Source of the DNA: Phycisphaerae bacterium
GTDB taxonomy: Bacteria > Planctomycetota > Phycisphaerae > Tepidisphaerales > Tepidisphaeraceae
Direction: 5' to 3'
Length of the DNA: 53,611 bases
NCBI GenBank assembly: GCA_030448225.1
Contig: JAUJNJ010000032.1
Location: 1 to 53,611, forward strand
In this document: one piece after another, positions 16,110 to 23,593 of the stretch
Numbering within the stretch: the stretch's first letter is position 1
How the letters are laid out: each line of letters begins with the position of its first letter
Position numbers and translations under genes: made by a program
The notes under the pieces: generated by a model
Databases searched by the model: none
The model's input: the letters and a program-made list of their open reading frames with translations, nothing else
Told to the model about the DNA's origin: nothing

Positions 16110-16473
16110 CGCCGCAGTATAGACTCGGTCTCCGCGGTGGGCTGGTGGGAGAAGGAGGATTAACCGCGAAGCGCGCGAAGGACACGAAGGAAGGCGAGTG
16201 AGGTTCAGAGGCTACGTCCGGGGAAGGACCGGTGCATCGCGCGGGCCGCGCACCAGCGACCCGGAAAATGAAATCACACTTCGGACGGCCGGTCTCGAGC
16301 GGCCGTTCCTCTCGATCGTTCGCTCGCTCCGCACTGATCCCGCTTCGTGTCCTTCGCGTCCTTCGCGGTTCGATCACCTTGTTCAATCTCCGCCCGCGTC
16401 CGTAGACACCCGCGACCGCTGGCGGCTATTCTCGCGTCCGCATTCCAACGTCCCACTCACGCGGAGCGCGCAC
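16110..16473. repeat. Inverted-repeat element E5 (GCGAAGGACACGAAGG words)
   Basis: Left arm 16162-16190 (AACCGCGAAGCGCGCGAAGG, then ACACGAAGG) and right arm 16343-16370 (CTTCGTGTCCTTCGCG, then TCCTTCGCGGTT) are imperfect reverse complements, about 150 bases apart. No gene in the gap. It lies between divergent SDR and DUF2231 genes. Confidence 0.7.
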
Positions 16474-17700
16474 TTGACCAAAGAGTTCATCAATCCGAAC
16501 TGGCACGTCATCCTGATCCACCTGCCGCTCGGCGTGTTCGTCATGGGCGTCCTGATCGAGCTGTTCAGCTTCCTGTACCGCGACAGCGCGATCCGCATCG
16601 TCGCGCGCGGGATGATCTGGCTCGGCGCGCTGTCGACGCTCCCGGCGGCCTACTCCGGCGTCTACGCGTTCGCCAACGTGGTCCGCATGGAACTGCCCGC
16701 CGAGGCGGGCGGCGACCCGGAGGGGCGACCGTGGCACGAGACGGCGGCCGCGGCGAGCGGCCCGGGGGGGCTGAACGAGCACCAGTGGGAATACCTCGGC
16801 CGCCACGCCTGGGCGCAGGGGTCGTCCGCCGTGCTGGCGGCCCTGCTCGTGACGATCGGCTTCGGCGCGTCGGACCGGTGGCGGCAGAAGCTCCAGGTCC
16901 CGATCATGGCCGGGCTCGTGCTCGCGCTCGTCGCGATGGCGTGGGGCGCGTACTTCGGCGGCGAGATGGTCTACCGCTACGGCACCGGCGTGAACGTCGT
17001 GCAGGAAAAGGGCGCGATGCCCGAAGCGTCGGCCCCCACCACGACCGACAGCGCCGCGCAGGAACAGACCGAGGTCAAGGCCGGCGTCGAGCGGTACGTC
17101 CCGCCGCTGCAACTGCACGTGACGCTCGCCGGCGTGGCGGCGGCGCTGTCGCTGGCGGCGCTGGGGATGTCGATGCGCGTCATGTCGACCGCCGACGCGT
17201 GGCGCGACACCGAGGTCGCGCCCGCCCGCAACCTGCTCGACCTCGAGAGCGGCCCGCGCGACGACTACGACCTCGACCGCACCTCCCCCGACCCCGACTC
17301 CGGCGCCGGCCCCCACGGCATCCCGTCCGCCCGCTTCTGGCTGCTGGCCGCCCTCACCGGGGGCCTGGCGGCCCTCGCCGGGTGGTGGTTCCTCGGCGGC
17401 CTCGACGAGACCGGCACCTGGCAACCGCAGGCCCTGTGGCAGGCCGTCGCCCAACACCAGCGCAGGCTCTACCACGTGATCGGGGCCGGCGTGTTGTTCG
17501 TGCTGCCTCTGATCCTCGCGCTGATCGCCCGCTTCGCGCGGCGGAGCAAGTTCCTCCTCGGCCTCTTCTCGCTCCTGCTCATCGCCTCGCTCGGCGCGCA
17601 GGCGTGGCTCGGCGTGCTGCTGATGTTCGACACCCCCAACGGCAGCGTCTTCCGCTTCAACCCCGCCGGTGAGATCGCGGTCAGCACCGAGGCGGAATGA
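16474..17700 (+). CDS. DUF2231-type multi-pass membrane protein
   Basis: A 408-residue integral membrane protein. The conserved start is LTKEFINPNWHVILIHLPLG, so I place initiation at the TTG at 16474; the open frame goes back to 16198 through repeat DNA, which is unlikely to be translated. The motif NWHVILIHLPLGVFVMG followed by four helices is the DUF2231 signature. A second half repeats the theme (VPPLQLHVTLAGVAAALSLA) and ends with further membrane helices (FWLLAALTGGLAALAGWWF; FLLGLFSLLLIASLG) and AWLGVLLMFDTPNG. Histidines at the helix ends suggest haem or metal binding as proposed for such proteins, but this is inference. Convergent with the DUF3299 operon. Confidence 0.75.
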   Translation: MTKEFINPNWHVILIHLPLGVFVMGVLIELFSFLYRDSAIRIVARGMIWLGALSTLPAAYSGVYAFANVVRMELPAEAGGDPEGRPWHETAAAASGPGGLNEHQWEYLGRHAWAQGSSAVLAALLVTIGFGASDRWRQKLQVPIMAGLVLALVAMAWGAYFGGEMVYRYGTGVNVVQEKGAMPEASAPTTTDSAAQEQTEVKAGVERYVPPLQLHVTLAGVAAALSLAALGMSMRVMSTADAWRDTEVAPARNLLDLESGPRDDYDLDRTSPDPDSGAGPHGIPSARFWLLAALTGGLAALAGWWFLGGLDETGTWQPQALWQAVAQHQRRLYHVIGAGVLFVLPLILALIARFARRSKFLLGLFSLLLIASLGAQAWLGVLLMFDTPNGSVFRFNPAGEIAVSTEAE

Positions 17701-17733: not shown

Positions 17734-17763
17734 AAGAAAAACCCGGCCACCGAGGTGGCCGGG
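17734..17763 (-). terminator. Intrinsic terminator of the metal-ABC/DUF3299 operon
   Basis: A perfect 10-bp stem CCCGGCCACC/GGTGGCCGGG (17742-17751 with 17754-17763) is followed, reading the minus strand, by TTTTTCTT. It lies 39 bases past the stop of the last gene of the minus-strand operon and may also slow plus-strand transcripts from the DUF2231 gene. Confidence 0.85.
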
Positions 17764-17801
17764 CGTCGGGGTTCGGCAATGCGGAAACCGGGAGCGCGCG
17801 G

Positions 17802-18332
17802 TCACACGGGCTCGATGCTCTCGATGTCCATCTCGTAGAGCGACGACGCCTGGCCCTGGTCCTTCTTCAGGTTCACGCGCAGCTTGCCGAGCACGCGGAC
17901 GAGTCCGCGGTAGGTGTAGTTCGGGACGCCCGCCTCGTCCGGCACGTGGACGAAGACGCGTTCCTGCACCTTCGGCGGGCCGCCGAAGCAGCACTTCTGG
18001 ATCGAGTAGACGAGCTGGAAATCGCGCACGCGGTCCGACGCGCTGTCTTGCGTGAACATCTCCCCCTCGAGCAACACCCGCTTGCCGTCGAGCTGCCGCC
18101 ACCGCTCGGGCACGTTGTCGAGCGTGTCCTTCGCGGGGTCGAACGGGAAGTACCCGAGCGACTTCAGGTCCACCTCCACGTACGTCCCCCGGTCGATCAC
18201 GCCGCCGGTCACAGCCTGGCGGACGATGATGAACAGGAAGTACAAGAACGGCACCGCCACGACCGACATCAGCACGACGAGCCGGACGTTCACCCGGCTG
18301 GTCACGGGAGGTTTGGAGAGTGTGAGTTCCAT
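17802..18332 (-). CDS. Membrane-anchored DUF3299-type protein
   Basis: A 176-residue protein with one N-terminal membrane anchor (about 17-42, VRLVVLMSVVAVPFLYFLFIIV). Its soluble domain contains LDGKRVLLEGEMFTQDS and the cysteine motif IQKCCFGGPPKVQERVFVHV, then YTYRGLVRVLGKLRV and LYEMDIESIEPV. The GKRV.L.G...P..........L......CCFG.PP layout is that of DUF3299, an OB-like exported domain found beside LolD/FtsX-type ABC transporters. The paired cysteines could bind a metal. It is the last gene of the operon, before the terminator at 17734-17763, and a paralogue lies just upstream. Confidence 0.7.
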   Translation of the reverse strand: MELTLSKPPVTSRVNVRLVVLMSVVAVPFLYFLFIIVRQAVTGGVIDRGTYVEVDLKSLGYFPFDPAKDTLDNVPERWRQLDGKRVLLEGEMFTQDSASDRVRDFQLVYSIQKCCFGGPPKVQERVFVHVPDEAGVPNYTYRGLVRVLGKLRVNLKKDQGQASSLYEMDIESIEPV

Positions 18333-18333
18333 A

Positions 18334-18448
18334 GGAGTAGGCAGTAGAGAGTAGGCAGTATGCAGAAATCCGAAGAGGGGGTAGTCGACGGCAGGCGTTT
18401 GGCAGTAGCTGTTCTCTTCCTGCCTACTGCTTATCGACTATCAGTCTA
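18334..18448. repeat. Inverted-repeat element E6 (TAGGCAGTA words)
   Basis: The left arm (18334-18360) is GGAGTAGGCAGTAGAGAGT followed by AGGCAGTA. The right arm (18410-18448) has CTTCCTGCCTACTGC and CTATCAGTCTACC. It sits between the two DUF3299 genes inside the operon and touches the start region of the downstream gene. Confidence 0.65.
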
Positions 18449-19244
18449 CCCCGCCGCACTTCGGCGCCGGCTTCACGCTGGCGATGTCCATTTCGAAGAT
18501 GCTGACGATGAAGCCGTCGTCCTTCTTCTCGTCGACCTTCAGCTTGCCCTCGACGGTGATCTCGTCGGCGAAGCTGACGGCCTTTCCGTCGGGGCAGTGC
18601 GCGACAACCGTGTGCTGCACCTGCGGGGGCTGGCCGAAGCAGCAGGCGAACAGGCTGGGGACGAGGGCGAACTGCGTGATGTTTTCGGCCTGGTCCATCG
18701 GGATCATGTAGCCGCGGAGTCGGACCGTGTGGCCCGTCAGCGACTTCACGTCATCGGGGATGTTGCCGCCCTTTCTCCTGGTCGTACTCGAAGTTGCCGA
18801 GGTCCTGATCGACAGTTCGACGACCTGCCCGTCCTTCGGCTTCGCGTGGGGCTTGCGGCTCCTCGGCCGTCGGCGGGGCGCTCTGGGGCGAGCGGGTTGC
18901 TGCCGGGCGTCGTCGTGACGGCGCCGGGGTTGTTGCGGTTCTTCAGGTTGGCAGCGGCCTGCTTGGCGAGGTTGCGGCTCGCAGACGCGGATCTGCTCCT
19001 CGACGTTCCCCAGTCGCTCGGGCTGGTCCTTCACGAGCCGCGGCCACCTTCTTCAACAGCGGCAACGCGTTGGCCCACTCGCCGGCGGCGAAGGCGGCGT
19101 TGGCCCGCACCTCCACCGCGCCGGCGGACGCCGCGGCGTCGTCCTTCGCGGCGGCGGTCTCGGCGGCATTTTCGGCCGCGAAATCGGCACGCCCGACCCC
19201 AGCAGGCTGGCGACGACGAACATCGAAACAAACTTTCGCATCAT
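18441..19244 (-). CDS. Exported DUF3299-type protein with helical N-terminal region, frameshifted
   Basis: Starts at the tandem ATG at 19244/19241, preceded by a good Shine-Dalgarno (GGGAGGAG). The signal peptide is MMRKFVSMFVVASLLGSGV. The frame then shifts near 19190 into AAKDDAAASAGAVEVRANAA and AFAAGEWANALPLLKKVAA, a TPR-like helical pair, and again near 19040 into VKDQPERLGNVEEQIRVCE. More shifts follow near 18960-18780. The well-kept C-terminal half is one frame: GHTVRLRGYMIPMDQAENIT, FALVPSLFACCFGQPPQVQ, DEITVEGKLKVDEKKDDGF. The CCFGQPP cysteines match the downstream paralogue. Net length is a multiple of three, so the indels cancel. Same operon as the ABC genes. Confidence 0.7.
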
Positions 19245-19497
19245 TTGACTCCTCCCACAGTTACGACAGCACCCGGGCGAGGTTCCGGGCGGCGAGTCAA
19301 CGGTCGGCAGACGGGAACGTCGACTATCCACAGATTACGCGGATTCAACACATTTCGACGACGTCCGGATCAGGCTGTGGCTCTCCCCACTCCTCATCTC
19401 TCGAACCTGTGATCGAACCTCTGGTTTTTCTCCGTGCCTCCGCCGTCCGATTCGCTGCGATCTGTACCTACTTCAAGACGCACGCCCGGGGCGATCC

Positions 19498-21379
19498 TCA
19501 CCCGGCGACGAGGTTCGTCGCCACCGGCGTGCGGTAGGCCTTCAGGGCCGGCACCAGCCCTTGCCAGCAGGGCGATCAGGACGACGACCAAGTACATTAT
19601 CTCCGCGCCGCCGGCGTGAGCCAATCGATTCCTTCCCCCATGGTACGCTCGAAACATGCCGAGCCGACGCCCGCGATCGCGTGGCCGCCACCAGCCCGAG
19701 CAGGCCGCCGATCAGCCCGATCAGGCCCGCCTCGACGCAGATGAGCGTGAGGATGCGGACGCGGGTAGCGCCTGGCCGCCCGCAGGACGGCGATCTCCTT
19801 CTGCCGTGCCGACACCGAGTTATAGATGCTGACGAGGATCGACACGGCCGCCACCACGCTCACCAGGGCCGCCAGCACCACCAGCAGCAGCGTGCTGCCG
19901 CGGAGGAACGTGTCGAAGAACTCGCGCATCACGCCCGCCGGGTTCACCGCCGCCGCGTCGGCCCTGCCGACCTGGAGGTCGTAGAGCAGTCGACCGGTCT
20001 GGAACGGCCCGGCGCGTTTTCACGAGGATCGCCGACACCTCCACTCGTCCTCCGGCAGGTCCGGGACGATGTTCCCCTCGTCCCCCGTCGTCGAAGTGGA
20101 ACGCCTCGGCGTGGGCATGATTGTGGTCGCCGTGGGCGTGGTCGGCGTGTTCGTCACCCTCCTTGTGGACGGTGCCGTCGCTGTGCGTGTCGCCTTGGGC
20201 GTGGTCGGCGTGGTCGTCGCCCTCTTCGTGGGCGGTGCCGTCGCTGTGCGTCTCGCCATCGGAGTGCGCCTTCTCGTCCTGCCGTGGCTCGGCGGCCGGG
20301 GCGGGGGCGGCCGGGGCGGCGGGCACCGGCTCGGTGGGTCGCAGCAACTCGCCGATCGGCTGGTCGGCGCCGGCCGGTTGCAGCAATTCGCCGTCGGCCG
20401 GCCGCGAGGCGGGACCTGTCTTTGGCGCCGCGCCGGCCCGCCGGAACAGCTTCATCACCGACTTCGGCGGCACCTCGTTCGGGTCGAACCCGAGCTTCTT
20501 CAGCACCTCGGGGATCATCTCCGGCGGCACGGCGTCCGGGTTGATGCCCGCCTTGATCATCGCCTGCTGGATCAGGCCCGAGCTGTGCTCCTCGATCGCG
20601 TAGAGGCTGATCACGGGGATGAACAACACGCCGTCGTTGGCCGTGCGGGTGGGTTCCAGGACGCCGACCACCTCCCACTCCAGATCGTGGATGTCCGGCT
20701 CCTCGCCGGGCGCGGGCATGCCGTGGGTCGCCTTGAACTTGTCGCCCACTTTCAGCTTCTGTCGCGTCGCCACCTCGCTGCCGATGACCGCCTGGAATCG
20801 CCGCGGGTGGAAGACGCGCCCCTCGGCCAGTTCGTACTTCTTCCCACGGCGGTACTCCATCGTCGACGCGGCGACCGGCTGGTCCGGGTCGCGCTGGCGC
20901 TCCGGGACGTTCGGGTCCTGGAACGCGGCCAGGCGCCGGCCGCGGTCGTCGTATCCCTCGAAGGGCTTGCCGTCGTCGTCGAAGCCGAACATCTGCGGCG
21001 ACGTGCCGACGATGCGGTGCCCGTTGTAGCTGTCGCCGACCATGAACGGGACCGCCAGCCGCACCCACGGCGCGTAGAACGGCTTGCCGGGCACCTGCCG
21101 CTTGCGGGACAGGTCCTCGTAGACGTCGTACGGCACATTCCCCGCGCTGCGGTCCATGTGGTAGACGGTGTTGAGCGTGAGTTGCAGCGGCGAGCCTTTC
21201 GGGGGGCCGACGAGCACTTCGTAGCCGAAGTCGGTCTGCCCGAATAGCCGCCCGCTCTCCCGCCGCGCCAACAGCACCGCCACCGCCAGCGCCACGCCCA
21301 GCAGCACCGACAGCAACGTCAGCGACGTGCCGAGCGCCCGCTCGCGCATCTGCTTCAGGACCAGTTGGAACAGGTTCAT
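19498..21379 (-). CDS. FtsX/MacB-type ABC permease with His-rich loop, frameshifted
   Basis: Membrane subunit of a LolCE/MacB-type transporter. The ATG at 21379 gives MNLFQLVLKQMRERALGTSL and the first helix (LTLLSVLLGVALAVAVLLA). A large extracytoplasmic MacB_PCD-like domain follows (GYEVLVGPPKGSPLQLTLNT, QAVIGSEVATRQKLKVGDKF). Inside it, about 20085-20275, is a stretch dominated by His, Asp and Glu (DHADHAQGDTHSDG; GDHNHAHAEAFHF). Frames then shift near 20040, 19950 and 19780. The last three helices are seen as FLRGSTLLLVVLAALVSVVA with SIYNSVSARQKEIAVLRA, ILTLICVEAGLIGLIGGLLG, and QGLVPALKAYRTPVATNLVA, ending with TGA at 19498-19500. About 627 residues. The His-rich loop suggests metal capture or sensing; that is inference. 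Confidence 0.75.
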
Positions 21380-21425
21380 GCGTTCAATGCCCGGTGATCA
21401 ATCGGTCGCATTACTGTTAAGCCTC

Positions 21426-21655
21426 AATGACCAAGGACCAAGTCGCAATGACCATCGAGCGCCCGGAAGCAATGACCAGGTGCCTAGGAAAAACTGACCC
21501 GACCAGTGTATGCCCTGTAAAGCCGCGGATGTCATCCATGGGGAAGACCGCCGATGACATCGGCGGCTTTACACAGGAAAGCCCTCCGTCTTCATTGGTC
21601 TTTGGTCGCTGGTCATTTGTTGGTCATTGAGACTTGATCATTGGTCATTACATTC
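21426..21655. repeat. Inverted-repeat element E7 (CAATGACCAAGG words) with inner hairpin
   Basis: Left arm 21426-21480 (ATGACCAAGGACCAAG, CAATGACCAGG) and right arm 21596-21655 (TTGGTCTTTGGTCGCTGG, TGGTCATTG repeated) frame an inner inverted repeat: 21513-21536 (TGTAAAGCCGCGGATGTC core) against 21553-21577 (GACATCGGCGGCTTTACA core). It lies between the ABC ATPase and permease genes and supplies the last codons of the ATPase. Confidence 0.8.
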
Positions 21656-22437
21656 CTCCCGGCTCGGTTCAGTTCCGCCAGCGACACCACGCGGTCGAAC
21701 CGGCCGGTGATCTGGGGGTCGTGGCTGACGAGCAGGAGGCTCGCGCCGACCTCGGTGCAGAGGCGACGGATCAGGTCCACGACCTGGCCGGCGTTGCCCG
21801 GGTCGAGCGCGCCGGTCGGCTCGTCGGCCAGCACGAGGCTCGGGCGGTTCGCCAGCGCGCGGGCGACGGCCACGCGCTGCTGCTGGCCGACCGAGAGCTT
21901 GGCCGGAGTGTAATCGGTGCGATCCGCCAGCCCCACCTCGGCGAGCAGGTGCCTCGCCCACTTCGGGTCCGGGCGGCGGCCGGTGAAACTCATGCCGAGC
22001 AGCACGTTCTCCAGCGCGGTGAACCCGGGCAGCAGGTGGTGGGTCTGGAAGACGTACCCGACGTGGCGGCCGCGGAACACGTCGCGCTGCGCCTCGCCGA
22101 GCTGCGCCAGGTCCGACGCGACCGGCTGGCGCGACGCGCCGGCGCGGTAGTTCAAGGTTTCCCCCGCGGCCCCGTCCCCGCCGCCCCCGTTCGCGACGGC
22201 CGTTGCGGCGGCGGTCGCCGGCTCGGGAATGTCGTAAAGGATCTTGCCGCCGTCGGGGGTGAGGATGCCGGCGATCAGGTGCAGCAGCGTGGTCTTGCCG
22301 GTGCCGCTGCCGCCGACGAGCGCGACCTGTTCGCCGCCGGCGAGGTCGAACGACTCGACGTCGATGACGGGCACGGCCGCCCCGTCGGGCGAGACGTACC
22401 GCTTCGTCAGGCGTTCCAGCCGCAGGCCCATGTCCAC
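21613..22437 (-). CDS. ABC transporter ATPase (LolD-like)
   Basis: A 274-residue nucleotide-binding subunit for the FtsX-type permease encoded downstream. Walker A is GGSGTGKTT (42-50), Q-loop region YVFQTHHLLPGFTALENVLL, signature LSVGQQQRVAVARAL, Walker B LVLADEPTGALD, and H-loop LLLVSHD. Between Walker A and the Q-loop sits an unusual Gly/Ala-rich insert of about 30 residues (PATAAATAVANGGGGDGAA). The last eleven residues (MTNDQVSMTNK) are encoded by the right arm of repeat element E7, so the original stop has apparently been replaced. It starts at the ATG at 22437 (or 22431), just after a 15-bp palindrome at 22447-22461. First gene of the ABC/DUF3299 operon. Confidence 0.88.
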   Translation of the reverse strand: MDMGLRLERLTKRYVSPDGAAVPVIDVESFDLAGGEQVALVGGSGTGKTTLLHLIAGILTPDGGKILYDIPEPATAAATAVANGGGGDGAAGETLNYRAGASRQPVASDLAQLGEAQRDVFRGRHVGYVFQTHHLLPGFTALENVLLGMSFTGRRPDPKWARHLLAEVGLADRTDYTPAKLSVGQQQRVAVARALANRPSLVLADEPTGALDPGNAGQVVDLIRRLCTEVGASLLLVSHDPQITGRFDRVVSLAELNRAGRNVMTNDQVSMTNK

Positions 22438-22446
22438 CGCCTTAAG

Positions 22447-22461
22447 TGCAAGTCACCTGCA
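22447..22461 (-). promoter_or_regulatory. Palindromic operator candidate before the ABC operon
   Basis: TGCAAGTCACCTGCA is a 15-bp dyad (TGCA-n-GT-n-AC-n-TGCA; the outer 4 and inner 2 bases of each half match). Its edge lies 10 bases upstream of the ATPase ATG. A possible -10 box (TATTCT, reading the minus strand; AGAATA at 22465-22470) is just upstream. Placement fits a repressor site, and a Fur/Zur-family gene lies upstream on the same strand. No similar site was seen elsewhere in this locus. Confidence 0.45.
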
Positions 22462-22564
22462 TGAAGAATAGTGGCCGGGCCGCGACGGGTCAACCGCGTA
22501 CAGTCGGGAGCGAGTCGGCGAGAGGGGTCATCGTCTTCCGGCTGAGTAATCGATTTGCGTTGCG

Positions 22565-22588
22565 ACGTGCCCGCTAAAGCGGCCACGC
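22565..22588. repeat. Second copy of the CGTGCCCGCT/AGCGGCCACGCC repeat
   Basis: Matches the copy at 4299-4322 except for one base (TAAA here, TGAA there). The core CCGC-TAAA-GCGG is a small hairpin. It lies between the Fur-family gene and the ABC ATPase. Confidence 0.55.
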
Positions 22589-22677
22589 CGCGTGGAATGG
22601 GCACGGACAGTGCGAGGACGACGTCGGAGAGGACGGAAACGCCGTCGCCGCCTTCACCCGTTGGAATCGAGTCGCCG

Positions 22678-23142
22678 CTACTCCCGGCACTTGGGACACA
22701 GTCCGTGCAGCAACACCTCGGGGTACCGCACGGCGTAGCGCGGGCCGACGCGGAGCGATTCGACCAGGCCCTTTGGGATCCGCGCCGCCGCGAGGCACTC
22801 GACGTTGCCGCACGCGTCGCAGACGAAGTGGGCGTGCGCGTGCGGGGCGCCCGACGCCGCCGCGGGGCCGCCGCCGGCGGCGGTCATCGCGTAGCGCCAC
22901 GTGCGGTCGGCACCGCGGACGCGGTGGACGAGGCGCTCGCGCGTGAACGTGTTGAGCGTTCGATAGACCGTGACGGCGTCGGTGTCGTTCGGGAGTTGGT
23001 CGAGCACCTCGGGCACGCCGAGCGGGCGGGCGCTCTTGGCGAGCACCGCCAGCACCCCCATCCGCACCGGCGTCCGACGCAGCCCGGCCTTTCTCAACAA
23101 CCCGCCGGACGTGCCCGTGTCACCGCGCTTCACGGCGGGCAT
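22678..23142 (-). CDS. Fur-family metalloregulator (Zur/Fur/PerR type)
   Basis: A 154-residue winged-helix regulator. I take the ATG at 23142 (MPAVKRGDTGTSGGLLRKAG), because the family domain starts there; the frame is open to 23220. The DNA-binding part has LRRTPVRMGVLAVLAKSARP and the recognition helix DAVTVYRTLNTFTRERLVHR. The metal-binding part has PHAHAHFVCDACGNVECL, giving the His cluster plus first CxxC, and the C-terminal CPKC for the structural zinc site. The His-x-His-x-His-F-V-C-x-x-C string looks most like Zur. Metal identity cannot be settled from sequence alone. It lies 240 bases upstream of the ABC operon on the same strand, which points to control of that operon. Confidence 0.85.
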   Translation of the reverse strand: MPAVKRGDTGTSGGLLRKAGLRRTPVRMGVLAVLAKSARPLGVPEVLDQLPNDTDAVTVYRTLNTFTRERLVHRVRGADRTWRYAMTAAGGGPAAASGAPHAHAHFVCDACGNVECLAAARIPKGLVESLRVGPRYAVRYPEVLLHGLCPKCRE

Positions 23143-23593
23143 TATAGCGGTTCGCCGCGCCGACGGCAGGAATGCATGGCCGTGCGGGCCGCGCCGGCCG
23201 CCGCGCGCGACGGGTCGCACTCGCCGCGTGGCCGCGTCCTCTCACGGACCGGGTCACAAACCTGCGCGTGTGCGGCCCGCTGGTGCGGCGAAACCGCAGG
23301 CCCCCACGATGCCGTTCGCGCGCGGCGACGGGGAACGACGCCGTCCCAATGGGCTTTATCCGATATCGGAGTCGAGCGGGCGCGCGAAGATGTCAGCATC
23401 GCCAACTGAGCGCGCCACACACGCATGGATCGCGCGATAGAGCCGGCTTGCGCACGCCTGATATCGCCCGCGGATCCCCTCTCAACCGGCCCGGGCAAGC
23501 CGGTGCGCCGGGGGACCGGCCACGGGATGGAAACAAGAACGCCGACCTTTCGGCCGGCGTTCGTGCATCTTTCGAAGATCGTTGAAGTCGAGC
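23143..23593. other. Intergenic stretch with GCGAAAC repeat copy 2 and a terminator
   Basis: No gene supported. Positions 23284-23324 repeat the TGCGGCGAAACCGCA-type segment of 13566, here diverged (CAGGCCCCCACGATGCCGTT). The reverse of the Fur start carries TATAAT overlapping the ATG (23139-23147 region), which may be the promoter of the fur gene or chance. Confidence 0.45.
23533..23562 (-). terminator. Intrinsic terminator of the small secreted-protein gene
   Basis: Reading the minus strand, GAACGCCGGCC-gaaa-GGTCGGCGTTC (stem 23552-23562 with 23537-23547, one mismatch) is followed by TTGTTTCC. It lies 32 bases past the stop of the gene at 23594-23842. Confidence 0.75.

Follow-up and report, generated by a model that had tools for sequence, protein, structure and literature searches.

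Genes and features of the locus

The window, which is the whole stretch of DNA analysed (53,611 nucleotides, contig JAUJNJ010000032.1 of a Phycisphaerae bacterium, assembly GCA_030448225.1), contains a predicted operon on the minus strand that runs from position 23142 to 17741 and comprises, in this order, a FUR-family gene, an ATP-binding cassette (ABC) ATPase gene, a MacB/FtsX-type permease gene, two DUF3299 genes and an intrinsic terminator. This five-gene set is probably a planctomycete relative of the Zrg zinc-starvation systems from which the protein ZrgA is missing. A first-pass annotation made from the sequence alone had listed five same-strand genes, a dyad before the ATPase and a terminal terminator, and all of these were found again where it had placed them. 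The order and families of the genes were likewise confirmed, although the permease and the first DUF3299 gene (DUF3299a) are not intact open reading frames (ORFs) in the record. The features are as follows.

22678 to 23142, minus strand: Fur-family regulator, probably Zur-like (PF01475); start at ATG 23142, or at GTG 23133 as in orthologues
22465 to 22493, minus strand: sigma70-like promoter TTGACC-17-TATTCT, from a consensus scan (9/12)
22447 to 22461, minus strand: predicted operator dyad TGCAGGTGACTTGCA, one mismatch from the consensus TGCAA-N5-TTGCA; 8 further genomes with the Fur clade have it 5' of the ATPase
21613 to 22437, minus strand: LolD-like ABC ATPase (PF00005; LolD is best in NCBIfam, under its cut-off)
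21380 to 21612, no strand assigned: intergenic stretch, a hairpin with inverted ATGACCAATGACCA-like repeats on both sides
19498 to 21379, minus strand: MacB/LolE-type permease (PF12704, weak FtsX), frameshifted after about 20100, its end placed by eye from homologues
21032 to 21034, minus strand: conserved Asp codon, permease residue 116 (55/57 permeases; His in the other two)
20723 to 20725, minus strand: conserved His codon, permease residue 219, in ATHG (55/57 permeases; Cys in the other two)
20687 to 20689, minus strand: conserved His codon, permease residue 231 (56/57 permeases; Glu in the remaining one)
20633 to 20635, minus strand: invariant Asp codon, permease residue 249 (57/57 permeases)
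20096 to 20266, minus strand: His/Asp-rich permease loop (14 His in 60 residues), with counterparts in other members
18441 to 19244, minus strand: DUF3299a (PF11736, PDB 4hsp match), N-terminal half frameshifted, start read by eye
17802 to 18332, minus strand: DUF3299b (PF11736), with an N-terminal helix of membrane-anchor length and an OB-like fold
17741 to 17764, minus strand: intrinsic terminator, a 10-pair stem with a T run after it

Ahead of the ATPase gene, which starts at 22437, stand the promoter-like site (22493-22465) and, immediately after it, the dyad (22461-22447). The Fur and ATPase genes are separated by 240 bp, and the ATPase and permease genes by 233 bp that contain the repeat-flanked hairpin. 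The ATPase matches PF00005, and its best NCBIfam model is LolD at 177.5 bits, below the cut-off of 307.75. The permease matches MacB_PCD (PF12704) at 44.9 bits and, further along, FtsX (PF02687) at 18.8 bits, which is below cut-off; its nearest row on the permease tree is a Humisphaera sp. metagenome-assembled genome, at 58% identity. In tblastn comparisons the permease changes frame, residues 1-333 of homologue P0002 lying in one frame and 361-554 in another, and additional breaks further on were read by eye. The N-terminal half of DUF3299a also shifts frame in tblastn; the Fur, ATPase and DUF3299b genes are open. The frameshifts cluster at 19498-20110 and 18800-19244, in two neighbouring genes. 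Long-read sequencing indels are the likeliest cause, and early decay of the operon could be another.

When the whole window was searched, the ATGACCAATGACCA-like repeat gave three matches with no more than 2 mismatches (0.04 expected), all between the ATPase and the permease at 21380-21648, and the C-terminus of the ATPase (MTNDQVSMTNK) runs into one copy. A DUF2231 membrane protein gene on the plus strand (16198-17700) converges on the predicted operon across the terminator; a relative of it holds the same convergent position in loci L013 and L014, and lies upstream in L006.

Relatives of the transporter

Plasmid sequences were searched by tblastn with the planctomycete permease P0068, which returned 104 records, all below 60% identity, and eleven neighbourhoods were viewed. 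The closest kin among these records are Zrg operons of Rhodobacterales. A Phaeobacter plasmid carries the order Fur-ZrgA-ATPase-permease-DUF3299, and Sulfitobacter, Pseudooceanicola and Rhodobacteraceae SC52 carry ZrgA-ATPase-permease-DUF3299-DUF3299; one ZrgA-bearing plasmid operon lies downstream of a zinc ABC binding protein gene and two GTPase genes. Alisedimentitalea and Ruegeria have a biotin/lipoyl(-HlyD) adaptor gene at the ZrgA position (by Pfam for one of the two), and Catenovulum has MerC, an oppositely oriented DUF3299 gene, the ATPase and the permease. In Rhizobium (L097), Paracoccus (L105), Meiothermus (L101) and Deinococcus (L102), an alkaline phosphatase gene is followed by a small protein gene and the ABC genes, and the small protein is DUF3299-like by an iterated profile (15.6 to 38.5 bits), not by Pfam. 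Alkaline phosphatase is a metalloenzyme, and its presence next to the ABC pair suggests metal delivery to the phosphatase. Because these neighbourhoods keep the same core while the companions change, the core of the family is DUF3299, ATPase and permease, and the doubling of DUF3299 is not specific to planctomycetes. The kinship with ZrgABCDE and PA4063-PA4066 that the first-pass annotation had proposed is well founded, resting on the sequence match of DUF3299a to PDB 4hsp, on the fold of DUF3299b and on the presence of Fur-ZrgA-ATPase-permease-DUF3299 plasmid operons among the permease matches.

Within the Phycisphaerae, scanning genome contigs turned up 18 loci, and a permease profile matched 99 of 298 genomes of the class, many of them through the FtsX end only; the working set comprised 45 genomes. 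In 21 of the 45, the Pfam model finds DUF3299 (E 0.001 or better) no further than about 2 kb from the permease; 18 of these matches are over the cut-off and three just under it (G106, G116 and G159). With the iterated DUF3299 profile the number rose to 28 of 45 loci, some of them weak (the profiles are weak for L079, L082 and L083), and two of the other 17 loci end at a contig edge. A hidden, divergent DUF3299 gene downstream was considered for the remainder and dropped, none being found by Pfam in 10 downstream proteins or by the iterated profile in the four rescanned. A DUF3299 pair is located elsewhere in the genome in G001, G009, G108 and G015. A FUR gene lies no more than 3 kb from the permease in 4 of the 45 genomes (G001, G041, G177 and G262), where about 0.12 would be expected by chance (p ~7e-6); in G177 and G262 this gene is divergently oriented and falls outside the regulator's Fur clade. 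The ATPase-permease-DUF3299 neighbourhood thus recurs across the class, whereas the full five-gene set is uncommon, yet far above chance.

No match to ZrgA (PF10986, DUF2796) was found in 10 ORFs or pieces around the predicted operon, and none exceeded the cut-off in the 45 related planctomycete genomes; matches below the cut-off occurred in 5 of the 45, as in 2 of 14 controls. For ZrgA, the lack of a separate His-rich protein that was first noted for the window holds for the relatives as well at this cut-off.

The permease and its His/Asp-rich loop

The model of an intact homologue, P0004, has a mean predicted local distance difference test score (pLDDT) of 88 and shows four long helices with a large domain between the first two, which fits a permease with four transmembrane (TM) helices. 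Among PDB structures it matches LolCDE and MacB best, LolCDE chains heading the Foldseek list. Four residues stand out in an alignment of 57 permeases from all branches of the family (D 55/57, H 55/57, H 56/57, D 57/57), and the exceptions are all other ligand-type residues: L082 and L083, a single clade, replace the first Asp with His and the first His with Cys, and in L077 the second His is a Glu. A regular expression covering HG...H...D matches 50 of the 57 family permeases and none of 20 FtsX paralogues of the same class, and it is present in 117 of the 120 protein matches listed, the window's own entry included. In the P0004 model the two conserved His flank a beta hairpin. This Asp/His/His/Asp set likely forms a metal site.

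The His/Asp-rich loop described in the first pass is indeed present, with the composition given above. A segment with at least 8 His per 40 residues is found in 9 of 46 planctomycete permeases, the window included, a threshold that was set after inspection of the data; it lies in the linker after the last conserved Asp in seven of these and between the two His in L071 and L072. Such loops also occur in both adaptor-type members and in 2 of the 4 phosphatase-type members. The maximum number of His per 40 residues is 2-3 in the four ZrgA-bearing members, which are one clade, and 2-6 in the 20 FtsX paralogues. On the permease tree the His-rich-loop label changes 8 times, and in the P0004 model the pLDDT stays below 50 over most of the corresponding loop. 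We read this as a repeated recruitment of His-rich segments at the transporter where ZrgA is missing, and that the loop functionally replaces ZrgA is a fair hypothesis. The stronger claim that the metal-capture part had been fused into the permease did not survive: in the sense of homology, a fused ZrgA was rejected, as the loop, a low-complexity stretch of a variable linker, shows no homology to ZrgA, and the closest homologue of the permease has few His there. At one locus (L070:7294-8109, genome G177) a His-rich lipoprotein-like protein is encoded right after the permease, and the Fur gene is divergent to the ATPase.

The DUF3299 proteins

Both genes match PF11736 (cut-off 22), DUF3299a with 46.4 bits and DUF3299b with 23.5 bits. 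DUF3299a matches the crystal structure of PA4066 (PDB 4hsp) by sequence, with an E value of 6.2e-6. The model of DUF3299b (pLDDT 86) has 4hsp as its best PDB fold, at E 1.3e-6 and template modelling scores of 0.50/0.58, and possesses a single N-terminal helix that could span the membrane. A CCF motif is present in 24 of 39 DUF3299-like ORFs. The doubling of DUF3299 was thus confirmed as two genes, but the suggestion that it stands in for ZrgA was rejected, since three ZrgA-bearing alphaproteobacterial operons also have two.

The regulator and its predicted operator

The regulator, taken as a protein of 151 residues, matches PF01475 at 43.8 bits (cut-off 23.1), and its best PDB match by sequence is EcZur (4mtd, E 2.8e-7). 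Its orthologue clade has two CxxC pairs and the motifs HxHxHFVC and VEC, and it is probably Zur-like. A TATAAT sequence, recognized by eye, stands immediately 5' of the GTG start (23131-23146), which suggests that the regulator transcript may be leaderless. One paper reports that in the Planctomycetota-Verrucomicrobiota-Chlamydiota superphylum genes of the Fur family lie close to those for zinc exoproteins, and it treats them as Zur; its text prints no motif letters to set beside the dyad (PMC10957091). Fur relatives were taken from single-sequence phmmer matches only; an iterated Fur profile was discarded after drifting to prepilin-like proteins through one ORF (L084:5354-6550), in which the Fur-family sequence continues into prepilin-type sequence with no intervening stop. 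Prepilin-like proteins are also encoded a few kb from the transporter loci L067, L071, L076 and L091, and beside a perfect dyad in genome G005 (L180).

The dyad was found by reading the window side by side with L001, a locus where the regulator and ATPase genes diverge and the dyad occurs twice in the space between them; a generic palindrome search upstream of the ATPase did not list it at the thresholds used. A longer pattern, TGCMRGTSAMTTGCAYTT, was tried and proved too tight for most relatives. When 42 upstream regions were scanned with TGCAA-N5-TTGCA, eight had no more than 1 mismatch and all others had at least 3. L001 is a ninth dyad locus, seen directly, as its copies lie at or after an over-called ORF start and outside the 42-region scan. 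The nine loci are the window and eight loci whose genomes carry the regulator clade, defined by protein search as at least 53% identity with E 1e-37 or better. Genome G123 carries the clade as well and was left out, since the region upstream of its ATPase is beyond the contig. Among the 41 rows of the permease tree with both traits scored (L018 is absent from the tree), 8 have clade and dyad, the window included, 33 have neither and none is discordant, giving a Fisher p of 1e-8 with kinship ignored and 7 of 7 independent pairs in agreement (p 0.0156). The dyad at the ATPase promoter is the predicted operator of this Fur clade.

Further copies of the dyad were sought in related genomes. At 1 mismatch of 14 there are 11 sites in nine clade genomes and 5 in fifteen others, and the reversed pattern gives one site across all 24 genomes. 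Two of the 11 belong to the ATPase-permease transporter itself. Another, in G129, heads a gene row that begins with a small protein and one lacking any Pfam match and continues with ZnuA, an ABC ATPase and an ABC-3 permease; in G005, one copy lies between the genes for GTP cyclohydrolase I (FolE) and a His-rich fasciclin protein, which face each other, and a second is at the start of MerC. The copy in G041 precedes the gene for a His-rich beta-barrel-like protein. MerC-family proteins are encoded both at this G005 dyad (L181) and beside the Catenovulum DUF3299-ABC locus (L099). The looser pattern ATGCAAN5TTGCAT was set aside, having sites in all 24 genomes and hardly any enrichment in the clade. 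Twelve of its sites were picked among the matches listed, eleven of them in clade genomes. In G015, ZigA (630 bits, cut-off 600) is encoded 0.7 kb downstream of a core-perfect dyad, and another loose-pattern site of this genome lies at the gene for a choice-of-anchor M protein that weakly matches PEP-CTERM; the remaining ten gave nothing interpretable. Eight of the 9 clade genomes encode ZnuA-type proteins, as do 6 of the 15 others, and the ZnuA-type proteins associated with dyads have AztC as their best NCBIfam model, below cut-off, with manganese families scoring too. The idea that separate DUF3299 pairs carry the dyad was rejected (1 of 2 loci in clade genomes, a 1-mismatch site standing upstream of the pair in G001 and no site in G015; 0 of 7 elsewhere). 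Taken together, the set of dyad sites resembles a Zur regulon, one incompletely seen.

Interpretation

We interpret the five-gene set of this planctomycete as a ZrgBCE-type unit for zinc starvation that lacks ZrgA, and put the probability of this reading at about two in three; it is filed as a ZrgA-less variant and not as a strict ZrgABCDE system because ZrgA was not found. The system is conserved and probably zinc-linked, with a predicted Zur-like clade that has its own operator. What appears to be new is the dyad TGCAA-N5-TTGCA (1 mismatch in the window), situated after a predicted promoter and apparently tied to the Fur clade. Neither a Zrg variant lacking ZrgA nor such an operator in planctomycetes was described in the literature searched, most subscription journals lying outside its coverage. 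As for the metal control proposed in the first pass, a response to zinc is supported by the co-occurrence of regulator and operator and by the partly zinc-related set of dyad sites in relatives, but the regulator misses the NCBIfam Zur cut-off. The assignment to a planctomycetal version of the zinc system is good as to family; the wording of a fusion was too strong.

In this model, zinc-loaded regulator would occupy the dyad at the transcription start and block transcription, and a fall in zinc would release it and so allow synthesis of the transporter. The ATPase and the permease, with its four TM helices and large periplasmic domain, would form a MacB/LolCDE-like machine whose ATP-driven motion acts on the periplasm. 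The Asp/His/His/Asp set in the periplasmic domain would be its metal site, and the disordered His/Asp-rich loop may gather zinc, in the role that ZrgA plays elsewhere. The two DUF3299 proteins, with their OB-like fold and CC motif and one of them presumably anchored in the membrane, could accept the metal or pass it on. The net outcome would be acquisition or redistribution of zinc in the envelope, in either direction (uptake, hand-over to ZnuA-like carriers or expulsion of a metallophore).

Several observations weigh against this reading. The regulator scores 40.4 bits against an NCBIfam Zur equivalog cut-off of 167, and at the four EcZur sensor-ligand positions, which we take to be two His, one Glu and one Cys, a pairwise alignment gives the same two His, Cys for Glu and Thr for Cys; the Cys in place of Glu is that of the VEC motif and is kept in 10 of 10 aligned clade members. 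The dyad motif was derived from the window, L001 and L055 with the sites in G005 and G015 already known, and its core form was trimmed after L060 scored 5 mismatches of 14; L018, L064 and L067 played no part in framing it. A weaker Fur relative in G106 (44%, E 3.5e-25) is without the dyad, and including it lowers the agreement to 8 of 9. No clear zinc link exists for five of the nine non-transporter strict dyad sites, and the loose pattern is found at 48 sites in the nine clade genomes and 66 in the fifteen others (5.3 vs 4.4 per genome). An upstream dyad is present at 2 of 15 ZnuA loci in clade genomes (G129 and G062), so that the expectation of a dyad at every such operon was rejected, and at 1 of 6 non-clade ZnuA loci, two further partial ones being left out, where a 1-mismatch copy lies about 0.1 kb upstream (G003, in which no Fur clade was found). 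Among the 120 protein matches listed, three reach 8 His per 40 and one of these is the window itself; P0002, the closest homologue (73% identical), has 2 His in the loop, and two Deinococcota members have neither ZrgA nor loop. In the available portions of the papers concerned, PA4066 shows no evident zinc binding (PMC11481552), zrgE knockouts leave growth unaffected (PMC9820375), and export of pyochelin-cobalt is argued for systems of the PA4063-4066 kind (PMC11481552).

The loop data leave real room for another view, that the His/Asp loop takes no part in zinc capture and is a neutral linker of low complexity; we rate this somewhat below even. Loop length and His content vary widely among homologues and few of the listed matches are His-rich, whereas the repeated gains within the family, set against none in the four ZrgA-bearing members or the 20 FtsX paralogues, argue for a function. 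A broader proposal, tentative and rather doubtful at present, sees a zinc-binding mechanotransmission machine in the Zrg/DUF3299 ABC family as a whole: the Asp/His/His/Asp site would be loaded by ZrgA or by a His-rich loop built in many times, and zinc would be moved between periplasmic carriers (from loop or ZrgA to DUF3299) and not through the membrane, the planctomycetes having a Zur clade with its own operator.

It is unlikely that the set encodes a Zur-controlled exporter, in which a MacB-like pump would expel a metallophore or a metallophore-metal complex, as proposed for PA4064/PA4065, with the DUF3299 pair acting like an adaptor. The LolCDE/MacB fold of the permease fits this idea, as do the two alphaproteobacterial members adjoining a biotin/lipoyl-HlyD adaptor gene and, according to the accessible part of one study, the intracellular build-up of pyochelin and cobalt in PA4065 mutants (PMC11481552). 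Nevertheless, no adaptor or metallophore gene was recognised in the 20 ORFs or pieces scanned, which cover part of the window, with no search aimed at a pyochelin-like metallophore, and the study of ZrgA, in the part available, reads the family as import, with ZrgA as the binding protein (PMC9820375). That the family imports zinc, as the earlier assignment implied, is itself contested in the accessible text of PMC11481552.

Still less probable is that the regulator senses another metal (iron, manganese or nickel) and the predicted operon lies outside the zinc response. Sensor positions unlike those of EcZur and the manganese-family scores of the ZnuA-type proteins under dyads would agree with this, but dyads stand at FolE, MerC, ZigA and ZnuA proteins (the last with AztC as best NCBIfam model, under cut-off), and relatives bear ZrgA. 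A LolCDE-like machine for lipoproteins or envelope maintenance, merely co-induced with zinc starvation, is very improbable, for although LolCDE chains are the top Foldseek matches and the ATPase is LolD-like, a role with metal is favoured by the Asp/His/His/Asp set, by His-rich loops that none of 20 FtsX paralogues has, and by the association of the family with ZrgA and DUF3299.

The mode of action of the Zrg/PA4063-4066 systems, import or export, is disputed in the literature. The present comparison offers a candidate metal site in the permease, a natural variant that lacks ZrgA and has its His-rich loop inside the permease, and, for planctomycetes, a predicted Zur-like operator, all of which are directly testable.

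Comparison with known systems

ZrgABCDE of Vibrio cholerae and V. parahaemolyticus, which the available text of two papers describes as Zur-controlled, shares with the window set an ATPase (ZrgC), a MacB-like permease (ZrgB) and a DUF3299 protein (ZrgE) (PMC9817125, PMC9820375). The window set differs in that no ZrgA was found, the permease has a His-rich loop, there are two DUF3299 proteins, and the Fur clade and the operator are different ones. PA4063-PA4066 of Pseudomonas aeruginosa has a split MacB (PA4064/PA4065) and a DUF3299 protein (PA4066), to whose structure, 4hsp, both DUF3299 proteins of the window are related; its ZrgA homologue PA4063 has no counterpart found in the window set. 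With the MacB/LolCDE superfamily the set shares a 4-TM permease with a large periplasmic domain and a LolD-like ATPase, whereas the window family has the Asp/His/His/Asp set, some His-rich loops and no MacA or LolA partner among the ORFs scanned. The Rhodobacterales operons (Phaeobacter, Sulfitobacter, Pseudooceanicola and SC52) differ in having their own ZrgA and a short permease linker without His, but they have the same gene order after ZrgA, a Fur gene upstream in Phaeobacter and a doubled DUF3299 in the other three.

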